Shown here: piece after piece, positions 7,724 to 21,409 of the stretch
Layout of the letters: every line of letters starts with the position of its first letter
How positions within the stretch are numbered: the first letter of the stretch is position 1
Origin: Clostridia bacterium
GTDB taxonomy: Bacteria > Bacillota_A > Clostridia > Oscillospirales > QAKW01
Direction of reading: 5' to 3'
NCBI GenBank assembly: GCA_017396865.1
Contig: JAFQKO010000050.1
Coordinates: forward strand, 1-21,409
DNA length: 21,409 nt
Position numbers and translations under genes: made by a program
The notes under the pieces: model-generated
Database searches by the model: none
What the model was told of the DNA's origin: nothing
Seen by the model: only the letters and a program-made list of their open reading frames with translations

Positions 7724-9031
7724 TTACTTATCGAGATAATACTCCACGGTATACGGCGCTTCCTCCGCAGGCTGAATCCGATAAAGGCGCAGCTCACCGG
7801 GCTCCAGCCGCAAGGGCAAAATCACAACGTCCTCATACTGCAGATGCTGCTCACCGTCCTCCTTGCTGACCTCGTAAACGTGGGAGGCCGCCTTCAGATC
7901 CAAGCGGATATGGGCATCCTTTTCATAATCACGGTTGAGCACCATCAGGTATTGATTACCGTAAGCATCCTTGTGCTCGGAAACCGAAATACGCGGCAGC
8001 AAAGCACCCTGCAGCAGCTCGCTCTCCTCCATGGAGGTGCGCAAGCCCTCCATGTTGGGCTCATCGGGCAGCAAAGACTCGTCGTGGATGACCCGCAGGC
8101 ACTCCAGCGCCATCAGGGTATTGCCCAGCATATGCAGCTCACGGTTCAGCTTCTTTTGCTCCTCGAAAAATGCGCCGGGGCCGCCGGTGGCGGGATCGAC
8201 GTAGCCATCGAACTCGGAATAGCACTCGGCCGCCTTAATGCCGTGCAGAACGCCTGCATAGGCCATCATGCGGGTCATGGCAAAATGATAATGATAATAG
8301 ATCTTATGGAAATGGAAGCGATGATCCTGATACCAGAACCAGAACGGAATATTTCGTTTTTGAGCGGCACGGCGCACCAGCTCCAGATTACTCCACATAT
8401 TGGAATTATCGAGCTGCTTTTCGGGATCATAGTCGGAGCGGCCGATGGGATAATAATCGAAGGACATTTCGGCGGGATCAATGACATCAAGGAATTGCTC
8501 GATATACTTTTTATAGTCGTCAAAGCTCTCGAAAAATCGGCTGTATTCGGGGTTGGCCACGGTATAGGGCAGTATCTCGGGATAATGCTGCTCGCAATAC
8601 TCGATCATGCGATGGGTCTCCTCCAGATGCTCCTCCAGCTTGGGCTCATCCCACACACAAAAGCTTTTAACGCACTTCCACTTGGAAAGGTCACGGAGCG
8701 CACCCTCATAATCGTTGGTCTCGCAAAAGATGTTCTTATCGCCCATGCCGCCGAAGCGCTGAAGGTCCTGAAACTGCACGTCAACGCCCAGGTCCTCCGC
8801 CGCACGCACGATATCCATTGCCATTCTGGGATCGGCCCAAAGGCAGCCGATCAGGTTGAAGCCTGCGTCGATGGCGGTCTGCACGGCGCGGCGGGTCTTC
8901 AGATAGGTATGCTCACTTTTGGGCGGCATCCCCATCTTGGTGGGGCTTGCCAGGCTGATAATAAATCGGTCCTGCTTCCAAACGCGGTTGGGGTTTCCGA
9001 TGGGATGGCGGGCAAGTAACTTATGTTCCAT
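7724..9031 (-). CDS. Cytoplasmic TIM-barrel glycosidase-like protein
   Basis: 435-residue protein, no signal peptide. Strand-like segments recur as in a (beta/alpha)8 barrel: FIISLA (23-28), FNLIGCLW (58-65), VDVQFQDL (83-90), VKSFCVWDEP (121-130), ILPYTVAN (153-160), EMSFDYYPI (188-196), IPFWFWYQD (228-236), GIKAAECYSE (264-273). A C-terminal beta-sandwich-like part runs from about 340 to 420. Asp128-Glu129-Pro130 sits where clan GH-A enzymes carry their acid/base Asn-Glu, so Glu129 is a candidate catalytic residue. The seventh strand, where the GH-A nucleophile Glu lies, ends in Tyr-Gln-Asp instead. An aromatic and His-rich stretch (237-250) follows. No family is assigned; a glycoside hydrolase-related enzyme for an intracellular oligosaccharide is the best guess. 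Start ATG at 9029-9031 with AAAGGAAA upstream; terminators flank the upstream side only. Confidence 0.75.
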   Translation of the reverse strand: MEHKLLARHPIGNPNRVWKQDRFIISLASPTKMGMPPKSEHTYLKTRRAVQTAIDAGFNLIGCLWADPRMAMDIVRAAEDLGVDVQFQDLQRFGGMGDKNIFCETNDYEGALRDLSKWKCVKSFCVWDEPKLEEHLEETHRMIEYCEQHYPEILPYTVANPEYSRFFESFDDYKKYIEQFLDVIDPAEMSFDYYPIGRSDYDPEKQLDNSNMWSNLELVRRAAQKRNIPFWFWYQDHRFHFHKIYYHYHFAMTRMMAYAGVLHGIKAAECYSEFDGYVDPATGGPGAFFEEQKKLNRELHMLGNTLMALECLRVIHDESLLPDEPNMEGLRTSMEESELLQGALLPRISVSEHKDAYGNQYLMVLNRDYEKDAHIRLDLKAASHVYEVSKEDGEQHLQYEDVVILPLRLEPGELRLYRIQPAEEAPYTVEYYLDK

Positions 9032-9093: not shown

Positions 9094-10161
9094 TTAGATT
9101 CTTTCTTTAACAACGATGCCTTCTTTAGAGGACTTAAATGCGGCTTCCATGATCTTCATCGAGCGACGCAGCTCATTGGGCTGAACCGCAACCTTAGAAT
9201 AATCACCGGTCTCCATGCCGTCGCAGAGCATCTCATGGAGCATATAGTTGGTTCTCTTCTCGGCAATGTCGATATGCATGCTCTCGGTAGAATCCTTGGG
9301 GCGGGCTGCCATGGTGCGGGTGGGGCCTGCAGCGGTAAAGACAACCGCATTCTCCCAATCCATCTCCACGTCCAACGCACGAACGATATCCGCGCCGCTG
9401 CCCCAATCGGCGATCTTCAAAGTACCTGCGTCGCCGTTGATGTACCAACGAGGCTGATCGATCAAATGGAAGGTGCCGACCTCGACCAGTGCATTGGTGC
9501 CGTTTTCAAACTTCATCATCATCTTGAAGTTATCATCCACGTCGTCGATCTCCCGATACTTGACGTTCAGCACCTGAGCATAAACCTCAACAACGGGGCT
9601 GTCGATCAGCATCAAAAGCTGGTCGATGAGGTGAACGCCCCAGTCCAGCATCATGCCGCCGCCCGCAACCTTGGTGCAGCGCCAGTCGCCGGGGATGCCG
9701 CGGGCACCAACGACCTTGGATTCAATATAGAAGGGCTTACCGATGGTACCCTTTTCATATACGTCCTTCACGATGAGATAGTCTCTGTCCCAACGTCTGT
9801 TTTGATGAACGGTGAAGATCTTGCCTTCCTCTTTAGCAACCGCCAGAACCTCTTCCAGTTCCTCGGAGTTCATCATAACCGGCTTTTCACACAATACGTG
9901 CTTACCTGCCCGCAAAGCCTGAATGGCATAGGGCTTATGAAAATTATTGGGGGTGGTGATCAGCACCAGATCGATCTCGGGATCGTTGATCAATGCCTCG
10001 GCAGTATCATACCAAAGCAGACCGGCCTCCTCTACCTTTTCTTTCTTTTCAGGCTTGATATCATAGGCACCCTTAACCTCCATGCGAGAAATCTTTTCCC
10101 GCACCAGCTTGGTATGGAAATTGCCCATGCCACCAAAGCCGATAACACCCATCTTAAACAT
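9094..10161 (-). CDS. Gfo/Idh/MocA family oxidoreductase
   Basis: NAD(P)-dependent dehydrogenase of the sugar/inositol oxidoreductase family, cytoplasmic. From ATG at 10159-10161 it has 355 residues, the usual family length. The Rossmann GFGGMG is at 8-13 and the cofactor-site EKPV at 92-95. The catalytic-region motif DWGVHLID follows GGGMM about 90 residues further on. This start was chosen because a consensus GGAGGT lies 9 bases upstream; the frame is open up to a GTG at 10201-10203, but that start would put the ribosome binding site inside the gene. It is divergent from the PHP-domain gene and has its own promoter and terminator. The substrate cannot be told from sequence; the neighbouring glycosidase-like gene suggests a sugar. 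Confidence 0.92.
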   Translation of the reverse strand: MFKMGVIGFGGMGNFHTKLVREKISRMEVKGAYDIKPEKKEKVEEAGLLWYDTAEALINDPEIDLVLITTPNNFHKPYAIQALRAGKHVLCEKPVMMNSEELEEVLAVAKEEGKIFTVHQNRRWDRDYLIVKDVYEKGTIGKPFYIESKVVGARGIPGDWRCTKVAGGGMMLDWGVHLIDQLLMLIDSPVVEVYAQVLNVKYREIDDVDDNFKMMMKFENGTNALVEVGTFHLIDQPRWYINGDAGTLKIADWGSGADIVRALDVEMDWENAVVFTAAGPTRTMAARPKDSTESMHIDIAEKRTNYMLHEMLCDGMETGDYSKVAVQPNELRRSMKIMEAAFKSSKEGIVVKERI

Positions 10162-10190
10162 AAGAATCATACCTCCGTTCAATGAGTCGC

Positions 10191-10203
10191 GTGGTAATAC
10201 CAC
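10191..10203. promoter_or_regulatory. 13-base palindrome in the dehydrogenase leader, candidate operator
   Basis: GTGGTAATACCAC is a perfect palindrome around a central A. It falls between the predicted transcription start (about 10213) and the ribosome binding site of the dehydrogenase gene on the minus strand, a normal place for a repressor roadblock. No regulator gene is adjacent, so the cognate protein is unknown. Confidence 0.4.
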
Positions 10204-11264: not shown

Positions 11265-14200
11265 TTATGCGGTAAGCAATTTCAAAAGCTTCAGCGCATC
11301 AGACAAGGAGACCTTGCCGTCGCCGTTAATGTCGGCAAGCTCGGCATCAAGCTCTGCATCGCCGTTGATCCCGCTCAGCAAGAAAACCACATCCGCACTG
11401 TCGGCCGTGTCATCCAGATTGATATCGAATCGTTTTAACTCAACCAGCCGTGCTTCGGCCGCCTCCAGAATATCTAAATTTTTAACCAAAGCCTTGGCTT
11501 CGTCGGATAGCCCGTCATAAGCGATGCGAGCCGCTTCAATCGCTTCCTTAGAGTTCAAAGCGACCTTGCCGATGGCGTTAATCATGGCATCTACAGCTTC
11601 CGCCTCTTCAACCGAAAGCTCCGCAAAGGTCTCATCCATCCATGCAATCAGTTTATCCACATTCTTTTCGTCCAAAAATTTCTTGGTTGCGTGGTTGATA
11701 CCGGGATAAAGATCCAACTTTGCGTTATCCTGACCGGCTTCTTTAATTAGGTCATACAGTTGGATAGAATCCTGATATTCGACCTCATTATCAGCCAGAC
11801 CGTGCTGCAGATAGAAAGGACAAATGTCCTCCGTAATATGCGCCACAGGGGACGCAGCCAAACAACCATTGTAGTTGTCAGCCGCACCGTAGCCCAGCAG
11901 AGTGGGCGCATACTGTTGATTGCGATCAGTTGTCAGATCGGTGATAGGATACAATGCCACGCATGCTTGAACGGCAGAGGAATAATCAGCATTGCCCATG
12001 GTCAGATCTTCATAAGCAAGATCATTGGAGGTGGCGGCAACAAAGCTTGCCAGATGGCCGCCTGCCGATTCGCCCCAGATCGCAAAACGATCAGCATCCA
12101 GATTATAGGTCTCGGCATTGGCGCGAAGATAACGGATAGCCGCCTTGATGTCGTAGATGGGAGCGGGATACTTGGCTTCGCCACCGCAACGGTAGTCCAC
12201 AAATACAACGGCATAGCCGTCCTCCAGCGCTTGGATGGGGCCGCGGGCGGTATACAAAACAGTACCGTTGGAACTGTTGCCCCCACTGAAGCCGCCGCCG
12301 TGAATAAAGATGATCGTCTTGAAGGGGCCTTCCCCATCAGGCGTAACGATATGCAACTTTTGCGTATCAGACAGACTCGCATACTGCAAATTCAGCGTAG
12401 CATTCGCATAAGTACTCAAGTCCAGCCGGGAATATGCGCGGTAATTATCGCCGTTTGTCAAAGGAACATGGGGTTCAAATCGCTTTTGCAGAAAAGCAAT
12501 GATATTGGTAATGGAATCGGTTCCGTTCCAGATCGTTGGATCGGCATGGGGTGCGTCTGCAGGATAATAGGTATCCACCAACTCGGGATCAATTACCGCC
12601 TTCAGCGCTTCTTCCAGATCGGAACTGTGATAGGGCTCCACCAAGCTATCGTTCTGTCCATGTGCCAAATAAACGGGAACAGAATCCTCACTCACATAAG
12701 TGATGGGAGAAGCGGCCAGCGCCTGCTCCTCGGTCCAATCGGCGCCCAGCAGCTTTTCAATGGGATCGCCGACAGAATCATATAAACTCGAGCGGGAATC
12801 CCACTTGGTCAGATCGGAGATACAGTAGTTGGATACCACCGCCATCACTTCAGAGGAATAGGTTGCGTTACCCATAGACAGGTCTTCAAATTCAGCCACA
12901 CCGTTCGTCAGCGCCGTCATAAGTGCCAGATGACCGCCCGCAGAAGCACCAAATACTGCAATGCGGCTTGCATCAAGGCCGTATTCATCGGCACGGGCGC
13001 GAATATAGCGAATCGCCGCCTTGCAATCATAGATCTGCGCAGGCCATTGTGCTTCAGAAGCATACCGGTAGTTGGCGCAGACCACAGCATACCCCTTTTC
13101 CACGATGGCATCCAGGATCCCCTGCGCTTCGGGCGCAGTTGCCTTATCGCCGGTAAGCCATGCACCGCCATGGTAGTAGACCACCACAGGGAAGGGACCC
13201 TCACCATCGGGCAGGTGGATATCCAGCTTCTGTCGTTCAGACTGATCGGCATAGGCAAGATCAAGAAAATCGCGTGGCTCTTCTTCAGGAAGCTTCGAAG
13301 CATCACGGAGGTATACCTCCATTTCGGCCAGCTGTACATAAGCAGAGCTTTCACCGGAAGCTGCACCGGAAACCCCATTGACCACCAAACGGATCAAAAC
13401 CGCATCGACTGTATCGAAGCTATAACTGTATGCCTCGGTTGGAGAAGCACAACTTCCGTTGGTGATGGTATCAATAGTAATAAAGTCGGCATCGGTTGTA
13501 CCGCCGGTGCTGTATTGAATGGAAAAATCGGTAGGAAAGTTGGCGGCGCGACCGTCGGCAGTGGCAACATCGTTTCTGGGATACAGAACAATTTGGTTGA
13601 CGGCAGACAGTTCACCCAGATTAACAGCAACCACAACTCCGCTTGCATTTTTATTAGAGGAGTACCCATAGTTGCCTGCTGAAACGTCAGACTGAGTTAT
13701 ACCGTCGGTCAGATAGTCAATCTTGAAAAACTGGGCAAGACCAACATCGGAATTGGTCAAGGCAGTTTTGCCCAAAGCCAGATTTACATTATAATCCACA
13801 ACGGGGATATCCCAGTTGCTACTGTCAATATAGTTGAAATCATCTCTAAAAAGGAGCTTTCCGTTTTGAGTGACTTTGATATAATCCACCTTACCGGCCT
13901 CTTTTTTAGAGAAGCGCAAGCCCAAAGGACCCGCAGAGAAGTCAGTCGGCATCGTATCGGTAGAGATCAATTCTTCGTTGATATACGTTTTAACCGTAGA
14001 ACCGACGATCTCGATTTTTAAATCTACCATGGCACCCGTTGCCACATTAGCATTGGCGACCTTATTGATGGAAGATGCTGACCAACTGCCGGGCTGATGA
14101 ATCCAGACACCGACAGGATTGACCAATGCCATACACCACAGAGCAGGATTAGGAGATCCGTTACCCACCAAAAGACCCAACGCCTGATAATCAACGCAAG

Positions 14201-16832
14201 CACGCATCTCTACGGTATAGTCACCGGAGAAGGTTTGTGTGGTATAGTAGGTTACGGCATCGCCACCGGGAATCACCAGTTGGCCGTTTTGAATACTGAC
14301 GCGGCCATCGGAGGAAGCAGAAGGATACAGTTTAATCAAAGCCGCCTCTGCCGCCTCCAGCACAGACAGATTTTCAACCAAAGCCTTGGCACCGTTGGAA
14401 AGCGCCTCGTAAGCCGCGCGGGCGGCTTCAATAGCTGTTTTGCTGCTGCGGGTGATATCACCGAGATCGGTAATCATGTCGTCGACCGTATAAGCCGCCT
14501 TCTGATCCTCGGGCAACACAGGAATATCCAGCTTATCATTCAGCCAATTATAAATTGCATACAAATTGCGCTCGGAAAGAAATTTACCGCCGGGGCCATG
14601 GATCAGGCCGGGGAACAGCTCGAGCCGATGGCCGTTGCCACCTGCATCCACCAAAGCGTTATACAAATCAACAGAATCCTGATACTCAACCAGTGTATCA
14701 GCCATACCGTGTTGCAGGTAAACGGGGCAATCATCAGCAGATGCCTGCGCCACAGGAGAAGCATCCCAACAGTTTTGATAGTTTTCACTTTCGGGATCGG
14801 TACCTGCGGCATACCCCATCAGATTTGCAGTCCAACCCTTGGAATTATTATAGGCGGAGGTCAGGTTGGTGATGGGATACCATGCCACGCAGGCCTGAAC
14901 AGCAGAGGAATAGTCCGCATAGCCCATGGACAGATCCTCATAAGCAGGTTCATTTCCGGTAAGCGCCACAAAGCTTGCCAGATGGCCGCCTGCAGATTCA
15001 CCCCAGATGGCAAAGCGATCGACATCCAGCTTATAGATTGCGGCATTGGCACGAAGATAGCGGATCGCCGCCTTAATATCGTGAACGGGCGCGGGATATT
15101 TGGCCTCTCCGCTGAGACGGTAGTCCACAAAGGCCACTGCATAGCCTGCATTGACAGCCTCCAACGTCGCACGCCCGACCCAATAGACAGAACCGTTCGA
15201 GCTGTTCAAGCCGGTGAAACCGCCGCCATGGATAAATACAATGGTAGGAAACGGCCCATCGCCCGTTTCGGGCGTAACAATATGAAGGATCTGCGAATCG
15301 GATTGAGTACCATACTTCAGCATCGTTGTGGCATTGGGCCAGGTCTTAAGATCCACATTGCTGAAAGTCTGGCTGTTATCATTGCCGGAGAGGGTGGTGT
15401 GGGGATTAAACCATTTACCCAAAAAATCGGTGACCGCTGCAGTGGGCTCTGCAGAGTTCCAGTAGGTGCTGTCGCCATGAGCGCCTTCGGCAGGATAGAA
15501 GGTATCAACCTTGGAAATACCATTAGCAGCAACGATAGCCTTCTCCAAATCGGAGCTGTGATAAAACTCCACCACAGCATCATCCTGACCGTGGCACAAG
15601 AGAACGGGAACGGAATTTTCATCCACATAAGTAATGGGAGAGGCTGCCAGCGCCTGCTCCTCGGTCCAATCGGCACCCAGCAACTTTTCAAGAGGATCAC
15701 CAACGGAATCATACAAGTTCGAGCGGGAAGTCCACTTGGTCAGATCGGAAATGCCATAGTTGGACACCACCGCCATCACTTCAGAGGAATAGGCTGCATT
15801 GCCCATTGTCAAATCTTCAAATTCGGTCATACCATTGGTCAGCGCTGTCATAAGCGCCAGATGACCGCCCGCAGAAGAACCAAAAACTGCAATACGGCTT
15901 GCATCAAGGCCATATTCCTCGGCATGGGCGCGGACATAGCGGATCGCCGCCTTACAATCATAGATCTGCGCAGGCCACTGCGCCTCAGAGGCATAGCGGT
16001 AGTTAGCGCAAACCACGGCATAGCCCTTTGCCACAAGGCTATTCAAAATTCCTTGCGCTTCGGGCACATCTGCCTTATCGCCGCTGAGCCATGCGCCGCC
16101 GTGATAGTAGACCACCACGGGGAAAGGGCCTTCCCCGTCGGGTAGGTGAATATCCAACTTTTGCCGTTCGGACTGATCGGCATAGACCAAATCAGAGAAA
16201 ACACGCACAGTCGTTTCGACTTGAGCATTGTAGATTTCCAATTCGGTCAACTGAACATGAAGGTTATTCTTCCAAGTATCCGGTAGGTTGATCTTGGTAA
16301 AGGTAAACTTTACATATCGCCCGCTAACCGCCTGATCCAACGTCACAACGGCGGGATCGGTGGAAACGGCGGGAACATCTCCGTTGACAATGGTTGCAAC
16401 GGTAGTCCAAGCGGCATTATCGTTACTCACCTGCACGGTATAGTCGATGGGGAACAAACGAGGGGTTGTAAGGTCTGCATTACGGGGATACAGTTTCCAT
16501 TGATTAAAGGCGGTTTCGGTACCGAAATCAAAGGTTGCCGTCACAGCGGTGGGCAGAACGACAGGCTCGGTAGCCGAAGTGCCGACTCCCAGCTTTTGGC
16601 TCGACCAACCGTAAGCAGAGGTATTGCCGAGCGTAACACCGTCGTTGAGTAAGCTCTTATCCCAAGCACCACCAAGATTGGAGGAAACAGTCAGCGTTGC
16701 ACCCAGTGCCAGATTTTCACTGTTATTGCCGGTCTCGGCCAATACGGGGCCAAAGCCTTGAAGTATCATCAGAAGTGCCAACAGCACGGAAAGCAGTCGC
16801 ATTGAAGCACTCTTTCTTTTCATATTTTTCAT
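11265..16832 (-). CDS. Secreted multi-domain protein: four esterase domains, binding modules and dockerin
   Basis: 1855-residue extracellular enzyme. Signal peptide at 1-32 (basic start, hydrophobic 12-25, cleavage near VLA-ET). Discoidin (F5/8 C)-like module 35-202. Esterase A1 about 212-477 (HGGAW 244; Ser320 in GSSAG, Asp418, His452). Esterase B1 about 494-768 (HGGGF 535; Ser613 in GESAG, Asp712, His745). Helical repeat 778-836. LamG/DUF1080-like domain 838-1000. Discoidin-like module 1015-1175. Esterase A2 about 1189-1453 (Ser1297 in GASAG, Asp1395, His1429). Esterase B2 about 1470-1735 (Ser1589, Asp1681, His1714). Helical repeat 1740-1800. Dockerin 1802-1855. The esterases resemble BD-FAE-type feruloyl/acetyl esterases, so removal of acyl groups from plant polysaccharide is likely; the exact ester is not known. 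AAAGGTG sits only 2-3 bases before the first ATG, so Met4 could be the true start. Probably co-transcribed with the rhamnosidase upstream. Confidence 0.93.
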   Translation of the reverse strand: MKNMKRKSASMRLLSVLLALLMILQGFGPVLAETGNNSENLALGATLTVSSNLGGAWDKSLLNDGVTLGNTSAYGWSSQKLGVGTSATEPVVLPTAVTATFDFGTETAFNQWKLYPRNADLTTPRLFPIDYTVQVSNDNAAWTTVATIVNGDVPAVSTDPAVVTLDQAVSGRYVKFTFTKINLPDTWKNNLHVQLTELEIYNAQVETTVRVFSDLVYADQSERQKLDIHLPDGEGPFPVVVYYHGGAWLSGDKADVPEAQGILNSLVAKGYAVVCANYRYASEAQWPAQIYDCKAAIRYVRAHAEEYGLDASRIAVFGSSAGGHLALMTALTNGMTEFEDLTMGNAAYSSEVMAVVSNYGISDLTKWTSRSNLYDSVGDPLEKLLGADWTEEQALAASPITYVDENSVPVLLCHGQDDAVVEFYHSSDLEKAIVAANGISKVDTFYPAEGAHGDSTYWNSAEPTAAVTDFLGKWFNPHTTLSGNDNSQTFSNVDLKTWPNATTMLKYGTQSDSQILHIVTPETGDGPFPTIVFIHGGGFTGLNSSNGSVYWVGRATLEAVNAGYAVAFVDYRLSGEAKYPAPVHDIKAAIRYLRANAAIYKLDVDRFAIWGESAGGHLASFVALTGNEPAYEDLSMGYADYSSAVQACVAWYPITNLTSAYNNSKGWTANLMGYAAGTDPESENYQNCWDASPVAQASADDCPVYLQHGMADTLVEYQDSVDLYNALVDAGGNGHRLELFPGLIHGPGGKFLSERNLYAIYNWLNDKLDIPVLPEDQKAAYTVDDMITDLGDITRSSKTAIEAARAAYEALSNGAKALVENLSVLEAAEAALIKLYPSASSDGRVSIQNGQLVIPGGDAVTYYTTQTFSGDYTVEMRACVDYQALGLLVGNGSPNPALWCMALVNPVGVWIHQPGSWSASSINKVANANVATGAMVDLKIEIVGSTVKTYINEELISTDTMPTDFSAGPLGLRFSKKEAGKVDYIKVTQNGKLLFRDDFNYIDSSNWDIPVVDYNVNLALGKTALTNSDVGLAQFFKIDYLTDGITQSDVSAGNYGYSSNKNASGVVVAVNLGELSAVNQIVLYPRNDVATADGRAANFPTDFSIQYSTGGTTDADFITIDTITNGSCASPTEAYSYSFDTVDAVLIRLVVNGVSGAASGESSAYVQLAEMEVYLRDASKLPEEEPRDFLDLAYADQSERQKLDIHLPDGEGPFPVVVYYHGGAWLTGDKATAPEAQGILDAIVEKGYAVVCANYRYASEAQWPAQIYDCKAAIRYIRARADEYGLDASRIAVFGASAGGHLALMTALTNGVAEFEDLSMGNATYSSEVMAVVSNYCISDLTKWDSRSSLYDSVGDPIEKLLGADWTEEQALAASPITYVSEDSVPVYLAHGQNDSLVEPYHSSDLEEALKAVIDPELVDTYYPADAPHADPTIWNGTDSITNIIAFLQKRFEPHVPLTNGDNYRAYSRLDLSTYANATLNLQYASLSDTQKLHIVTPDGEGPFKTIIFIHGGGFSGGNSSNGTVLYTARGPIQALEDGYAVVFVDYRCGGEAKYPAPIYDIKAAIRYLRANAETYNLDADRFAIWGESAGGHLASFVAATSNDLAYEDLTMGNADYSSAVQACVALYPITDLTTDRNQQYAPTLLGYGAADNYNGCLAASPVAHITEDICPFYLQHGLADNEVEYQDSIQLYDLIKEAGQDNAKLDLYPGINHATKKFLDEKNVDKLIAWMDETFAELSVEEAEAVDAMINAIGKVALNSKEAIEAARIAYDGLSDEAKALVKNLDILEAAEARLVELKRFDINLDDTADSADVVFLLSGINGDAELDAELADINGDGKVSLSDALKLLKLLTA
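11268..11429 (-). other. Dockerin module of the esterase protein
   Basis: Two calcium-loop repeats. Loop 1 at residues 1803-1814 has Asp1803, Asn1805, Asp1807, Asp1811, Asp1814; loop 2 at 1834-1845 has Asp1834, Asn1836, Asp1838, Ser1842, Asp1845. Each is followed by a leucine-rich helix. Loop positions 10 and 11, which usually set cohesin choice, are Ser-Ala and Leu-Ser. Confidence 0.87.
11628..13268 (-). repeat. Second copy of the esterase A-B pair (A2-B2)
   Basis: Codes for residues 1189-1735. It repeats the A1-B1 pair at 14529-16199 in the same order and orientation. Comparing A2 with A1 by eye over the first 203 aligned residues I count about 24 differences; B2 and B1 are less alike but share long identical blocks such as the one around GESAGGHLASFVA. 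The DNA is also clearly similar, pointing to an internal duplication of the whole two-domain unit. Confidence 0.9.
14529..16199 (-). repeat. First copy of the esterase A-B pair (A1-B1)
   Basis: Codes for residues 212-768. Partner of the A2-B2 copy at 11628-13268. The copies are separated by about 1.26 kb that encodes a helical repeat, the LamG/DUF1080-like domain and a discoidin-like module. Confidence 0.9.
16230..16712 (-). repeat. Discoidin-like module shared with the rhamnosidase (copy in the esterase protein)
   Basis: 483 bases encoding residues 41-201. It aligns without gaps to the module at 18173-18655 in the neighbouring gene: 131 of 161 residues identical by hand count, and the last 30 or so almost unchanged. 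Confidence 0.9.
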
Positions 16833-16852: not shown

Positions 16853-16880
16853 GGGCTGTAAAAACGAGTTTTTACAGCCC
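16853..16880. terminator. Hairpin between rhamnosidase and esterase genes, weak in the coding direction
   Basis: Perfect 13-base arms (16853-16865 and 16868-16880), realistically a 12-pair stem with a CGAG or CTCG loop. On the minus strand, the direction of both genes, it is followed by ATTTTAAC, a poor U tract. On the plus strand it is followed by five T. It may act as a leaky terminator that lowers expression of the esterase gene relative to the rhamnosidase gene. Confidence 0.65.
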
Positions 16881-16891
16881 TTTTTCTTGAT

Positions 16892-19800
16892 TTACTCGGC
16901 AAGCATCTTCAAAAGTCGCAGAGCATCGGCAAGGGAAATCTTACCGTCTCCGTTCACGTCGGCAAGATCGGCATCAACTTCTGCAGCGTCGTTGATACAG
17001 TTCAGCAAGTAAACTACGTCGGCAGAATTGGTGATGAGATCGCCGTTGAGGTCCACATTGAAGAGGTCCTCGCCTACAAACAGCAAGCCATCCTGCACCA
17101 TCCATTCGGTGGCGTAAAAGATGCTGTTCTGCTCCAGCAGCGCCGCAAGACTGCCATCGGCAATCGCACCTGCCTCAAAGGTTGCGGCGGTTGCCAGATT
17201 TGCATCGCGATTGGTGGCGGAATCGGCAGAGCCTGCCAGCCAATAGTTGTTGCTGTAGCGGCTGTAGCTATAGAGATAACTGCTTGTAAGGTCGTTGTAG
17301 CGGGCGATGGCATAACGGCTTGCGCCACTCAACTGCCCCATGTTCACGCAGTTGATGATATAGGCCATGTTCGCGCCGTTCTGGCCCCAGTCGGTGATAC
17401 CGGACACGTGCTTTGCAGCGGTGACGTCACCGCTGTTGACGCAGTTGAGGATCTTGGAAGCGGCCGTTGCACGGCCTGCAATACCGGCCACCGAGAGATC
17501 CTTTTCGCTGCCGTCGGAAATGGCGAGGGTTACGTCGGCGCCGTTATGGCAGTTTTCGATCAAGGTGCCGTTGACGGCACGGCCGACGATACCGCCCACA
17601 CCGTAGTCGTCACCGCTGACGGTATCGACCGGCAACAGTACGCTGACGGTACTGTTCAGCAGGCGGACGTTGCGGATGGTTGCCCCGTTGGCATTGGCAA
17701 AGAGGCCGACACCGTTGCTGTTCACGTAATTTCCGGTAAAGTTGATGGCAAGATCGGTAATGGTATAGTGGCCGCCATCGTAGGTGCCGGCGAAGTTTGC
17801 AGCCTGACCGCCGATGCCGATATAGCCCTCGATATCCTTCATGGAGATATCGGCTGTTTGGGTGAAGGTGAAGCCTTCCAAAGCGTGGGCTTTGGAATAC
17901 TGCTCCAGCGCCACAAGATCGGCGGCATCCGCGACCAGCCATTCGGAGGCGGTCTCAAAATTGTCGCAATAATGGAGATACTTCGCGCCCATCGGTGCCT
18001 GATCTTTCAGTTTCAGGGTTGCCAGCAGAGCTTCGGCTTCTGCGATCAGCGTTTCCGCATCGGCGGTCTTTTCCAGCCAAGCGGTAATCTGCTCGCCGCC
18101 CTCAAAATGGGAGGGCTCCAAGGCCTCAAAGAGAGCCTTATATTCCCGCAATGCATTGACAGCGGGATCACCGAAAATCTCCAGCTCGGTCAGCTGAACA
18201 TGGAGATTATTCTTCCAGGTATCGGGCAGATTGATCTTAGTGAAGGTAAACTTCACGTACCGTCCGCTGACAAACTGATCCAGCGTCACAACGGCAGGAT
18301 CGGTCACAACGGCGGGAACCTCTCCATCGGTGATGGTAGCAACGGTGGTCCAAGTGGCATTATCGTCACTGACCGCCACAGTGTAGTTGATGGGGAACAT
18401 CCGCGCCACCGTCAGATCGTGATTACGGGGATACATCTTCCATTGATTGAAGGTGGTTTCGGTGCCAAAATCAAAGGTAGCCGTTACGGCGGTGGGCAGG
18501 GTGGCAGGCTCGGTAGCCGAGGTGCCGACGCCCAACTTTTGGGTAGACCAGCCGCAGGCAGTGGCAGTACCGACGGTTGCTCCGTCGTTGAGATATTGCT
18601 TATCCCAGGTACCGCCGTTGTTGGAGGAAACGGTCAGGCCTGCGCCAAGCGCCAGATTGGTGCTTACCTCCTCGCTGCTTGCATAACAGACGGCCAGCTC
18701 GGAAAGCTGAACGTGAGAATTTTGATAATCATCGCAGGAGTTGATGGCGGTCACGGTGAACCGCAGATAACGCCCGCTCTTCGCCTCCGCAAGCGTTCCG
18801 ACCGCAGGCTGATAGATGGACTGCGGCACGGTGCTTTCCGTCACGGTAGCAACGGTGGTCCAGGTGCTGTTATCATCGCTGATCTCTACGGTATAGGCAA
18901 CGGGGAAGCAATATATGACCGTAGGATCAGCTATTCCGTTGGTACGGGGATAAAGCTTCCATTGATCAAAGGTCTTTTTGCTGCCCAAATCTACGACCAG
19001 AGTCTTGGGAGTAACAAGGGTGGTGATATTCTTGCCGTCGGAGGCGGAGGACCAACCGCTGGCGGCACTTGAGGTATGGATCAGCACGCCGTCGGTCAGG
19101 TTTGCGGCGCCCCAAGCGGAATTGACGGTGGAATTGGCGGTCACGGTGGCACCCAAGGCGATGTTCTCCGCCCCGATCAGGATCGGCTTGACGGTGAGCT
19201 TACGGGCGGTTGCAGCGGTCAGGGTGACCGTTTCTGCACCCAGCTCCTTGCCCGCCTCATCGAACCAAACCATTTGATAGTCCACGTCGTTATAAGCCTT
19301 GGCGGTGAGGGTCACGGTTGCACCCTCGACCACCTCAACGGCGGCAGACAGCTTAACCTTTTCGCCGTTATATTCCAGATAAGCAGGAACCGACTCATCC
19401 GCATTATTGACCGCGATATTAACGGTGCTCTCCCCTGCGGGGCTTTGAACGGTAAAGCTATAGCTACCCGCAACGGCGGTATAAACGGCATAGCCGTCCT
19501 TTTGCTCGATAAAGGTCAGGCCCTCGGCATCGCCGCCTTGGAGGGTGGCAAGATCGGCAACGGGCACCATCACGGTTGCGGTGGTATTGGCGGGGACGGT
19601 GCAGGAATAACGGAAGGTATCTCCTTCATAATTCCAAGCACTCTTGATCGTGCCGTAAACCGATTCATAGGTGGCATCGGCAGAGCCGAGGCTGCGATCG
19701 GGGTGGGGCTGCAGGGTGAAGGTCTTATAGCCCTCGACGGGAACGATACCCGCCATATAGCGATACATCCAGCCTGCTACTGCGCCGTAGGCATAGTGGT

Positions 19801-21409
19801 TAAAGGAGTTCATGGAGGCTTCACCGAAGCCGTTCTCCACGCTGAAGCTGTTCCAGCGTTCCCACATGGTGGTTGCGCCCTGATCGACGGTATACAGCCA
19901 GGAGGGGTTCTCATGCTGCAGCAAAAGCTTATAAGCAAGCTCGGTTTCGCCGATCTCGGTGAGGGTTTCCAGAATGATCTTGGTGCCGAGGAAGCCGGTT
20001 TGCAGCTTATTGCCCTTGGCGCGGATATTATCGGTCAGCTGCTTCTTTACCGCTGCAAAGGAGGCTTCATCGGGCAGCAGATCGAGGTAGAGGGCATAGA
20101 GGCAAACGCTCTGCTCGCTACGCTTCAGCGTGCCGTCCTCTTGCACGAATTGCTCAATAAAGTATTCTTTTTCGGTCTCATAGACCTCGAGATAGCGGGC
20201 GGCATCCTCGGTCTTGCCGAGGGCGGTGGCCATTTCGCTCATCAGCAGAGCATCGTAGGCATAATAGGAAACGGCCAGCATATTTTTGATCTCGGTATCG
20301 TTGGACTCATAGGCCAGCCAGTCGCCGTAGTTATGGGCGCCGCCCTTCTTCTCGGTGGAGGCCAGATAGCCGTCGATATAAAGCTGCATCGAATCGTACA
20401 TCTCGCGGAGGATCTCCACGTCGCCGTACTGCTTATACAGCTCATAGGTCACGATGACGCCCGCATCGGCCCAGCCCAAGGCACCGAAATTATTCCCGAA
20501 GGAGCCCATGGGAGAGACCGAAGCGTAGGCACCGTCGGCCCGCTGGGTATCCCGCATGGATTGCAGATAGGTACGCAAAAATTCTTTAGAATTATTGAGA
20601 TAGCCCGCCGCAACGGAAAAGACCTGCGTATCGGCAGCCCAGCCGTTTCGCTCGTTGCGCTGGGGGCAATCGGTGGGAACGCTCAGATAGTTGCCGTAAA
20701 GACCCCAATGAATGTTGGAGAGCAGTTGATTGACGTCGGCATCGCCGGTCACCAGCGAGCCGGTATCCTCCAAGGCAGAGGTCAGCACCTGACCGCGCAC
20801 CTGATGGATGGTTACCTCCTCGGTGGCGGTGATCTCTAAATAACGGAAGCCATAGAAGCTATGGGTAGAATGATAGGTTTCGGTTTCCACACCGCTCAGG
20901 GTATAGCGAGCGGTGGCGTCGGCGCCCCGCAGAGCAACCAGATAGAGGGAGCCCTCAGGGCCGTCGTTGCCACGGGATTTGGAGCCCTTGCTCTCGTTGA
21001 GCATCTCGGCATGGCGCATTCTGATTTGGGCACCCGCCGCACCGCTGACGGTCACCTCTTCCCGGCCGACAAAGTTCTGGCCGAAATCGAGAATGGCGGT
21101 TTGACCGGGCTTCAGGGTAAAGGCCTCCTCGCCCAGCTCGGCGGTCTTTTTCACCACGCCGTATTGATCGGCGGTCTTGTTGGTCACGCCTTCATAGATG
21201 TAGCCGCTCTGCACGGTGCGCTCCAGATCCTCGCGAGCATAGACCTCCACGCCCAAAGAGGTGGAGATGGCGCCGCTGAAATCGGCGCTGACGGCGGTAC
21301 GCAGCCAGCCTGCATCGTTATAGTCGGCCTGCATCCAATCGGTGTTGATGCGGGCATCATAGGCTTCACCCTCAAAGATATCGCCCATCAAAACGGGGGC
21401 ATAGCCTAA
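16892..21409 (-). CDS. Secreted GH78 alpha-L-rhamnosidase with binding modules and dockerin (N-terminus off window)
   Basis: Releases terminal alpha-L-rhamnose from plant glycans. 1505 residues are visible; the frame is open to base 21409, so the signal peptide and N-terminal domains lie outside. Numbered from the window edge: rhamnosidase N-terminal domain about 1-100, concanavalin-like domain 100-210, (alpha/alpha)6 catalytic barrel about 220-555, C-terminal sandwich to about 655. The signature DCPQRNER has Asp247 and the expected general acid Glu253, with Asp260 beyond; the expected base is Glu517 in TTMWERW. Then come an Ig-like region (656-745), discoidin-like modules at 748-906 and 917-1079, a helical linker, a GLUG-repeat beta-helix-like region (about 1140-1440, with segments such as GVGLFANANGATIRNV and GGIVGRAVNGTLIENC) and a dockerin (1449-1505). 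TTG and ATG codons near 21390 are internal, not starts. Upstream partner of the esterase gene. Confidence 0.94.
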   Translation of the reverse strand, partial: LGYAPVLMGDIFEGEAYDARINTDWMQADYNDAGWLRTAVSADFSGAISTSLGVEVYAREDLERTVQSGYIYEGVTNKTADQYGVVKKTAELGEEAFTLKPGQTAILDFGQNFVGREEVTVSGAAGAQIRMRHAEMLNESKGSKSRGNDGPEGSLYLVALRGADATARYTLSGVETETYHSTHSFYGFRYLEITATEEVTIHQVRGQVLTSALEDTGSLVTGDADVNQLLSNIHWGLYGNYLSVPTDCPQRNERNGWAADTQVFSVAAGYLNNSKEFLRTYLQSMRDTQRADGAYASVSPMGSFGNNFGALGWADAGVIVTYELYKQYGDVEILREMYDSMQLYIDGYLASTEKKGGAHNYGDWLAYESNDTEIKNMLAVSYYAYDALLMSEMATALGKTEDAARYLEVYETEKEYFIEQFVQEDGTLKRSEQSVCLYALYLDLLPDEASFAAVKKQLTDNIRAKGNKLQTGFLGTKIILETLTEIGETELAYKLLLQHENPSWLYTVDQGATTMWERWNSFSVENGFGEASMNSFNHYAYGAVAGWMYRYMAGIVPVEGYKTFTLQPHPDRSLGSADATYESVYGTIKSAWNYEGDTFRYSCTVPANTTATVMVPVADLATLQGGDAEGLTFIEQKDGYAVYTAVAGSYSFTVQSPAGESTVNIAVNNADESVPAYLEYNGEKVKLSAAVEVVEGATVTLTAKAYNDVDYQMVWFDEAGKELGAETVTLTAATARKLTVKPILIGAENIALGATVTANSTVNSAWGAANLTDGVLIHTSSAASGWSSASDGKNITTLVTPKTLVVDLGSKKTFDQWKLYPRTNGIADPTVIYCFPVAYTVEISDDNSTWTTVATVTESTVPQSIYQPAVGTLAEAKSGRYLRFTVTAINSCDDYQNSHVQLSELAVCYASSEEVSTNLALGAGLTVSSNNGGTWDKQYLNDGATVGTATACGWSTQKLGVGTSATEPATLPTAVTATFDFGTETTFNQWKMYPRNHDLTVARMFPINYTVAVSDDNATWTTVATITDGEVPAVVTDPAVVTLDQFVSGRYVKFTFTKINLPDTWKNNLHVQLTELEIFGDPAVNALREYKALFEALEPSHFEGGEQITAWLEKTADAETLIAEAEALLATLKLKDQAPMGAKYLHYCDNFETASEWLVADAADLVALEQYSKAHALEGFTFTQTADISMKDIEGYIGIGGQAANFAGTYDGGHYTITDLAINFTGNYVNSNGVGLFANANGATIRNVRLLNSTVSVLLPVDTVSGDDYGVGGIVGRAVNGTLIENCHNGADVTLAISDGSEKDLSVAGIAGRATAASKILNCVNSGDVTAAKHVSGITDWGQNGANMAYIINCVNMGQLSGASRYAIARYNDLTSSYLYSYSRYSNNYWLAGSADSATNRDANLATAATFEAGAIADGSLAALLEQNSIFYATEWMVQDGLLFVGEDLFNVDLNGDLITNSADVVYLLNCINDAAEVDADLADVNGDGKISLADALRLLKMLAE
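16895..17065 (-). other. Dockerin module of the rhamnosidase
   Basis: Two calcium loops, DLNGDLITNSAD and DVNGDGKISLAD, each with ligands at positions 1, 3, 5, 9 and 12 and followed by a leucine-rich helix. Positions 10-11 are Ser-Ala and Leu-Ala, almost the same as in the neighbouring esterase protein. It lies at the extreme C-terminus, the commonest dockerin location. Confidence 0.88.
18173..18655 (-). repeat. Discoidin-like module shared with the esterase protein (copy in the rhamnosidase)
   Basis: 483 bases, the second of two discoidin-like modules in the rhamnosidase protein and the partner of 16230-16712. The rhamnosidase's other module (about 18690-19170) is more distant, so this pair reflects copying between genes rather than simple tandem duplication within one. 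Confidence 0.9.

Follow-up and report, generated by a model that had tools for sequence, protein, structure and literature searches.

Several carbohydrate esterase domains can share one natural chain. A 2025 report presents Fll4 of Flavimarina sp. Hel_I_48, with the arrangement CE6-CE1-CE1, as the first enzyme to combine three distinct CE domains (PMC12247016). CE6-CE1 acetyl-feruloyl esterases occur in Bacteroides ovatus and Flavobacterium johnsoniae, and within-chain synergy has been described for the B. ovatus enzyme (PMC7110780). The dockerin proteins of R. flavefaciens FD-1 include the arrangement CE12-CBM13-Doc-CBM35-CE12 (PMC2930009). For the feruloyl esterase BD-FAE, the structural paper states that Glu197 contacts and holds the ferulate (PMC8165983).

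The window analyzed here, a whole stretch of 21,409 nucleotides from a gut bacterium of the Clostridia, encodes a protein, P0001, with four esterase domains. What is new is this four-esterase chain, as a variant of the known multi-esterase enzymes, together with a strongly supported conversion of its domain A1 by its domain A2. The history of P0001 is clearer than its function. Its domain limits (Table 1) come from Pfam and home-built profiles, and the leader may start at residue 1, 4 or 11.

Table 1. Features of the four-esterase gene and its upstream neighbour; positions are those of the window, residues those of P0001.
Feature	Position	Strand	Remarks
Four-esterase protein P0001	11265..16832	minus	1,855 aa, ORF 16832..11265
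Signal-peptide-like leader, ~residues 1-32	16737..16832	minus	by-eye reading of the sequence
N-terminal F5/8C module, residues 40-206	16215..16715	minus	Pfam and home-built profiles
Esterase A1, residues 211-479; S320, D418, H452	15396..16202	minus	Pfam, profiles, alignment
Putative converted stretch of A1, ~residues 210-408	15609..16205	minus	limits approximate
Esterase B1, residues 501-772; S613, D712, H745	14517..15332	minus	Pfam, profiles, alignment
Spacer 1, residues 778-836	14325..14501	minus	helical by look of sequence; home-built profiles
Jelly-roll lectin-like (CBM66-like) module, residues 840-1006	13815..14315	minus	profiles
Second F5/8C module, residues 1017-1181	13290..13784	minus	Pfam and home-built profiles
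Esterase A2, residues 1189-1456; S1297, D1395, H1429	12465..13268	minus	Pfam, profiles, alignment, model
Esterase B2, residues 1478-1740; S1589, D1681, H1714	11613..12401	minus	Pfam, profiles, alignment, model
Spacer 2, residues 1742-1800	11433..11609	minus	home-built profiles
Dockerin, residues 1801-1855	11268..11432	minus	Pfam match under cut-off, identity to neighbour, two repeats
Terminator-like hairpin, between the GH78 and esterase genes	16853..16880	both	
GH78-type alpha-L-rhamnosidase P0002, two F5/8C modules and dockerin	16892..21409	minus	upstream neighbour; runs off the window

An earlier note on this DNA had read one chain with four complete esterase domains in A-B...A-B order and a dockerin, and the profiles bear this out. 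PF20434, the BD-FAE family, matches four stretches of P0001 with 757 bits (curated cut-off 26.8), as against 40 bits (cut-off 22) for the Esterase family PF00756, which is linked to CE1, on the same domains. The Ser-Asp-His residues of all four domains align with the triad columns of BD-FAE. The triad also stands in these columns in every domain of the A and B clades described below (25/25 and 26/26, together 51/51), and it is intact in 15 of 15 domains across the four clusters of proteins with the ABAB layout. No CE6-like family was recognized among the Pfam matches of P0001. The nearest solved structures are BD-FAE (6tkx/6xyc), the GH43-CE protein 6mly, and 6nkf, at identities of 30-34%, and these relatives (6tkx, 6mly, 6nkf) are xylan or general esterases. 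The match lists of VIA-align and Foldseek are each taken up by matches to a single domain, and they bear on the domains rather than on the A-B arrangement. As for the dockerin, its Pfam score is 19.1 bits against a cut-off of 22.9; two calcium-binding repeats are present, and the module is 61% identical to the dockerin of P0002. The two spacers are approximately 55-65% identical to repeats of many otherwise unrelated long proteins, such as P0026 (up to 12 copies), P0074 and P0135, and Pfam does not name the spacers of P0001 FIVAR.

The A and B domains are distinct types. A1 and A2 are 77% identical and B1 and B2 58%, with 40-46% between A and B. In P0001, domain A carries HGGAW...GDK and GSSAG or GASAG, and domain B carries HGGGF...GNSS and GESAG. 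Thirteen nearly fixed columns separate A from B, including HGGAW/GDK versus HGGGF/GNS. The linker between A and B is 21 residues long in P0001, and a gap of 21-23 residues is found in all measured pairs (domains of at least 200 bits) except that of P0018. In this protein of 1,057 aa the domains run A-A-B, and the gaps between them, 4 and 38 residues, are atypical. In the predicted structure of A2-B2 (pLDDT 91.7, pTM 0.87), the pair is modelled as a single well-ordered two-domain unit.

Relatives were gathered by searching some 5.8 billion proteins with the full-length chain (62 matches) and with P0005 (the best 120 of 273 matches used), each search scoring the roughly 8,000 candidates with the most shared words. 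The esterase profile was run on 170 proteins, among which P0001 and P0003 are both the window protein and P0002 is its neighbour. Four esterase domains were found in P0001/P0003, P0004 and P0005, three in P0006 and P0018, and two in 19 proteins (16 clear A-B pairs; the matches in P0038, P0043 and P0130 are weak or partial); a further 31 proteins had one such domain and 114 lacked any. P0006 is N-truncated, since a B domain already begins close to its first residue. By this comparison, the A-B...A-B core is common to at least four clusters, those of P0001, P0004, P0005 and P0006, and a unique architecture is ruled out. The earlier note knew of no four-esterase precedent. Searches of open-licence PubMed Central likewise gave no enzyme with so many esterase domains; among sequenced proteins the search returned the three further clusters, so the layout is not a one-off. 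Three contigs, perhaps including that of the window, contain the P0001 cluster. A protein search with the A2-B2 unit alone gave no match at E 1e-100, at a length limit that probably excluded longer proteins. In genomes of unstated completeness, searched at E 1e-50, this unit matched 0 of 12 in the family of G002 (a relative of the host, see below), 1 of 394 sampled in its order, 0 of 391 sampled in its class, and 1 of 392 sampled in the order of a further genome, G001. These samples overlap, and the two matching genomes, G003 and G001, were both already known.

A tree of 73 domains was built after 14 of 87 had been dropped as short or weak and P0001 omitted as a duplicate of P0003. A domains form one clade of 25 rows (support 100/97) and B domains another of 26 (100/100), with 22 rows outside both. 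The order is constant, A first and B second, in the 16 A-B proteins and in the ABAB proteins; the sole scored domain of P0025 is a B. Four independent esterase fusions are ruled out by this tree. The B1 domains from the four ABAB clusters fall together in one clade (100/100), which argues that the doubling is old. Within this clade P0003+P0004 separate from P0005+P0006, which places the origin of B1 before that separation. The stem of the clade is long (0.35 in one tree, 0.45 in another). B1 groups with the B2 of P0003 and P0004 (97/95, and 90/86 in a second tree), and a single B2 clade for P0003-P0006 is disfavoured by 12.4 log units (p-AU 0.033). A clean single doubling was therefore not confirmed for B, although B1 is one clade. 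Long branches, or exchange of sequence among copies or among lineages, may explain the non-monophyly of B2. We read the tree as a single ancient doubling whose trace has been obscured by exchange or by the length of the B1 stem. Doubling in one line, followed by spread through recombination, is an alternative that we do not prefer. P0004 has the order jelly roll-F5/8C...A1-B1-spacer-jelly roll-F5/8C-F5/8C-A2-B2-spacer-spacer, which suggests that the doubling took in binding modules as well. The first jelly roll of this order is missing from the window protein and from P0005.

For A1, a simple history is ruled out by the conflicting placement of its two parts. Taken in full, the A1 of the window protein groups with its own A2 and not with the A1 of P0004 and P0005. 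Up to residue 319, nine of 16 diagnostic columns are A2-like, two (266 and 319) A1-like and five neither; from residue 411 on, 19 of 20 are A1-like and one is neither. Residues 320-410 hold zero diagnostic columns, with an identity of 87-90% to A2 versus 53-83% to the A1 of P0004. In the tree of the N part, A1 falls with A2 (100/98) and an A1 clade is rejected (p-AU 9e-6), and in that of the C part it falls with the other A1s (100/100) and A1+A2 is rejected (p-AU 2.6e-8). The effect sizes of this conflict are 72 and 66 log units; the cut point was picked after the pattern had been seen, which makes the p-AU values somewhat flattering and does not affect the log units. Intragenic gene conversion, by which A2 would have overwritten the first two thirds of A1, is thus strongly supported. 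The unconverted C-terminal third, which bears the Asp and His, is a distinct lineage with a stem of 0.73. A similar patch is seen in P0005, where A1 and A2 share 92-94% identity along some 60 residues; within it, A2 is 83% identical to the A2 of P0006 and A1 72-75% to the A1 of P0004. The four domains are, on this evidence, not equals: an old A-B pair appears to have been doubled, and A1 then partly overwritten by A2.

The modules at the two ends of the chain resemble those of rhamnosidases. The Pfam domains of the neighbour P0002 correspond to CAZy family GH78. Among the relatives gathered, the N-terminal F5/8C module has its nearest matches in the second F5/8C module of proteins of the GH78 type (84% identity to P0023, 81% to P0002, 74% to P0024), and the next-best matches are at about 44%. 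The jelly roll (66-68%) and the inner F5/8C (48-69%) are instead closest to those of P0004-P0006 among the same relatives. Since the end modules, including the dockerin, match rhamnosidases and these inner modules match P0004-P0006, the ends look local and the core familial. Sharing of a binding module and a dockerin with rhamnosidases suggests that enzymes are retargeted by module exchange. A recent graft of a resident F5/8C onto an immigrant gene is unsupported, because the third-position GC of the N-terminal F5/8C (0.53) is like that of the rest of the esterase gene and unlike the 0.64-0.72 measured in five of the six segments of the GH78 gene. The GC content at fourfold sites is 0.58 in the esterase gene versus 0.76-0.85 in six of seven neighbours measured, and a Gfo/Idh/MocA gene (9094-10203) is nearly as low at 0.61. 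Low GC at these sites is a weak hint of gene acquisition. Megablast gave zero plasmid matches and no viral-contig pattern was matched, methods that do not reach distant relatives.

Beside the GH78-type gene, the window contains genes for two Gfo/Idh/MocA proteins and for PHP, YceG, U32, AsnA and DUF3810 proteins, as well as a BNR-like gene, an AraC gene and one gene without a Pfam match. A 435-aa ORF (7724-9031, minus strand) matches nothing in Pfam or NCBIfam at E 1e-5 and was not found in the partly syntenic locus of the relative described below. The hairpin between the GH78 and esterase genes is perfect, with 12 pairs and T-rich tails on both strands, and lies 20 bases 5' of the esterase start codon. 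The same intergenic stretch showed no sigma-70-like promoter. Since a terminator-like hairpin parts the two genes, a simple operon is not favoured. In a Lachnospiraceae MAG (L001, 7902-11978), the gene for a jelly-roll-GDSL-A-B protein immediately precedes that for a GH78-type rhamnosidase, and GH43 and GH30 genes lie in the vicinity (NCBIfam matches below cut-off). A jelly-roll-GDSL-A-B-FIVAR protein is found in Massilioclostridium coli (L003, 7908-12821), with no rhamnosidase among the six genes scanned. A rhamnosidase thus adjoins an A-B protein in two of three contexts, the window and L001. A partly syntenic locus (L002) from a roe deer colon Clostridia MAG, G002, encodes AsnA (84% identity), U32 (73%) and GH78 (70%) proteins without an esterase gene between them, and no A-B esterase match was found in its whole genome. 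The rhamnosidase and the A-B esterase therefore need not go together. This 2.6 Mb genome has 13 cohesin matches over cut-off and 31 dockerin matches, which points to machinery of the cellulosome type in a bacterium related to the host. Nine cohesin matches lie within 30 kb of one contig (G002:C40:30572-59800).

We tentatively favour, at somewhat less than an even chance, the view that P0001 is a secreted, dockerin-bearing multi-esterase with a doubled A-B unit, acting as a cellulosome-attached deacetylase on a rhamnose-containing plant polysaccharide. What was observed is the architecture, the triads, the single B1 clade, the conversion and the rhamnosidase-type modules. Doubling of the A-B unit, probably a single event that took binding modules along, would predate the divergence of the known ABAB proteins; the two B domains would since have diverged, and A1 and A2 been partly homogenized by gene conversion. 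The protein would dock on a scaffoldin via its dockerin, and the F5/8C module common to it and the GH78 enzyme would let both bind the same glycan. The esterases would remove ester groups, most likely acetyl, from the polysaccharide. The column of Glu197 in BD-FAE holds E or D in none of the 51 A and B domains, in a gappy loop where the alignment is uncertain, and this makes acetyl likelier than feruloyl. The rhamnosidase link makes pectic rhamnogalacturonan the best guess for the substrate, and the neighbouring genes would point to a rhamnose-containing glycan rather than to the densely acylated polymer suggested in the earlier note. A and B may act at different positions, to judge from their nearly fixed sequence differences, and B1 and B2 on partly different substrates. 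De-esterification would let the rhamnosidase and other glycosidases work. A more elaborate form, which we consider rather unlikely, takes A-B as a rigid unit with two active sites of complementary positional specificity, in which recurrent conversion in A and free divergence in B would give one cellulosomal chain at least three specificities, for full deacetylation of rhamnogalacturonan ahead of the rhamnosidase that shares its modules.

The four domains might instead carry out the same one or two reactions, with the doubling raising local catalytic density. The similarity and partial homogenization of A1 and A2 are as one would expect where uniform copies do no harm or bring an advantage, and P0005 has its own conversion-like patch; the low identity of B1 and B2, the long-stemmed single B1 clade and the distinct lineage kept by the unconverted third of A1 argue against dosage, which is less likely than the deacetylase view but likelier than the other alternatives. 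Another alternative is a role on xylan, as a feruloyl or acetyl esterase like BD-FAE, rather than on pectin. Family PF20434 and the best solved relatives, BD-FAE and GH43-CE 6mly, speak for it, and the GH43 and GH30 genes of L001 would suit xylan as well. On the other hand, identity to the solved relatives is low, the ferulate-contact Glu is non-acidic throughout, no xylanase was recognized among the scanned window genes, and a rhamnosidase adjoins in the window and L001 (not L003). We consider a role on xylan unlikely.

The tandem duplication might also be neutral and maintained by recombination instead of selection. This would fit the conversion, which shows that the copies recombine, and the small number of genomes matched by the A-B unit. 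It is nevertheless improbable. The NG86 estimates of dN/dS are 0.20/1.03 (~0.20) for A1/A2, whose dS is lowered by gene conversion, and 0.30/1.26 (~0.24) for B1/B2. With both ratios well below 1 and every triad intact in four clusters despite the deep divergence of B1 and B2, the duplicates look kept for function, as the earlier note had supposed. An assembly artefact that fused two adjacent genes is the least credible account. The similarity of A1 and A2 could confuse an assembler in places, but their DNA differs by 10-21% per compared segment even inside the converted stretch, and the order recurs in P0004, P0005 and P0006, each with a diverged sequence of its own, which rules out an assembly chimera; the recovery of the cluster in three contigs, possibly including this one, also stands against it.

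The origin of P0001 is largely traceable, with a fixed pair doubled and one copy then partly overwritten by the other. In the A-B pair two active sites are set at a constant distance, which makes it a natural module for tests, and the wider family can be used to ask whether catalytic domains duplicated within one chain differ in specificity or only add dose. CE12 esterases have the SGNH fold. The GDSL-A-B proteins of L001 and L003 share the A-B pair and a jelly-roll module with P0001 but have one A-B pair plus GDSL, that is, three esterase-type domains. BD-FAE (6TKX/6XYC) has the Pfam family, fold and Ser-Asp-His triad of the P0001 domains, but it is a single domain, at about 30% identity, whose Glu197 is not kept in P0001 (PMC8165983). 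The R. flavefaciens FD-1 proteins likewise combine repeated esterases, binding modules and a dockerin; they have two CE12 domains and no unlike alpha/beta-hydrolase pair (PMC2930009). The CE6-CE1 fusions also place two unlike esterase domains in tandem, but these are two domains of other families, from Bacteroidetes PULs and directed at xylan (PMC7110780). Fll4 resembles P0001 in having several esterase domains per chain and differs in having three CE6/CE1 domains and no doubled pair, with no dockerin mentioned in the excerpted text; it is active on xylan, and no activity was found there for its third domain. Relative to that account, P0001 extends natural esterase fusions from three domains to four (PMC12247016).
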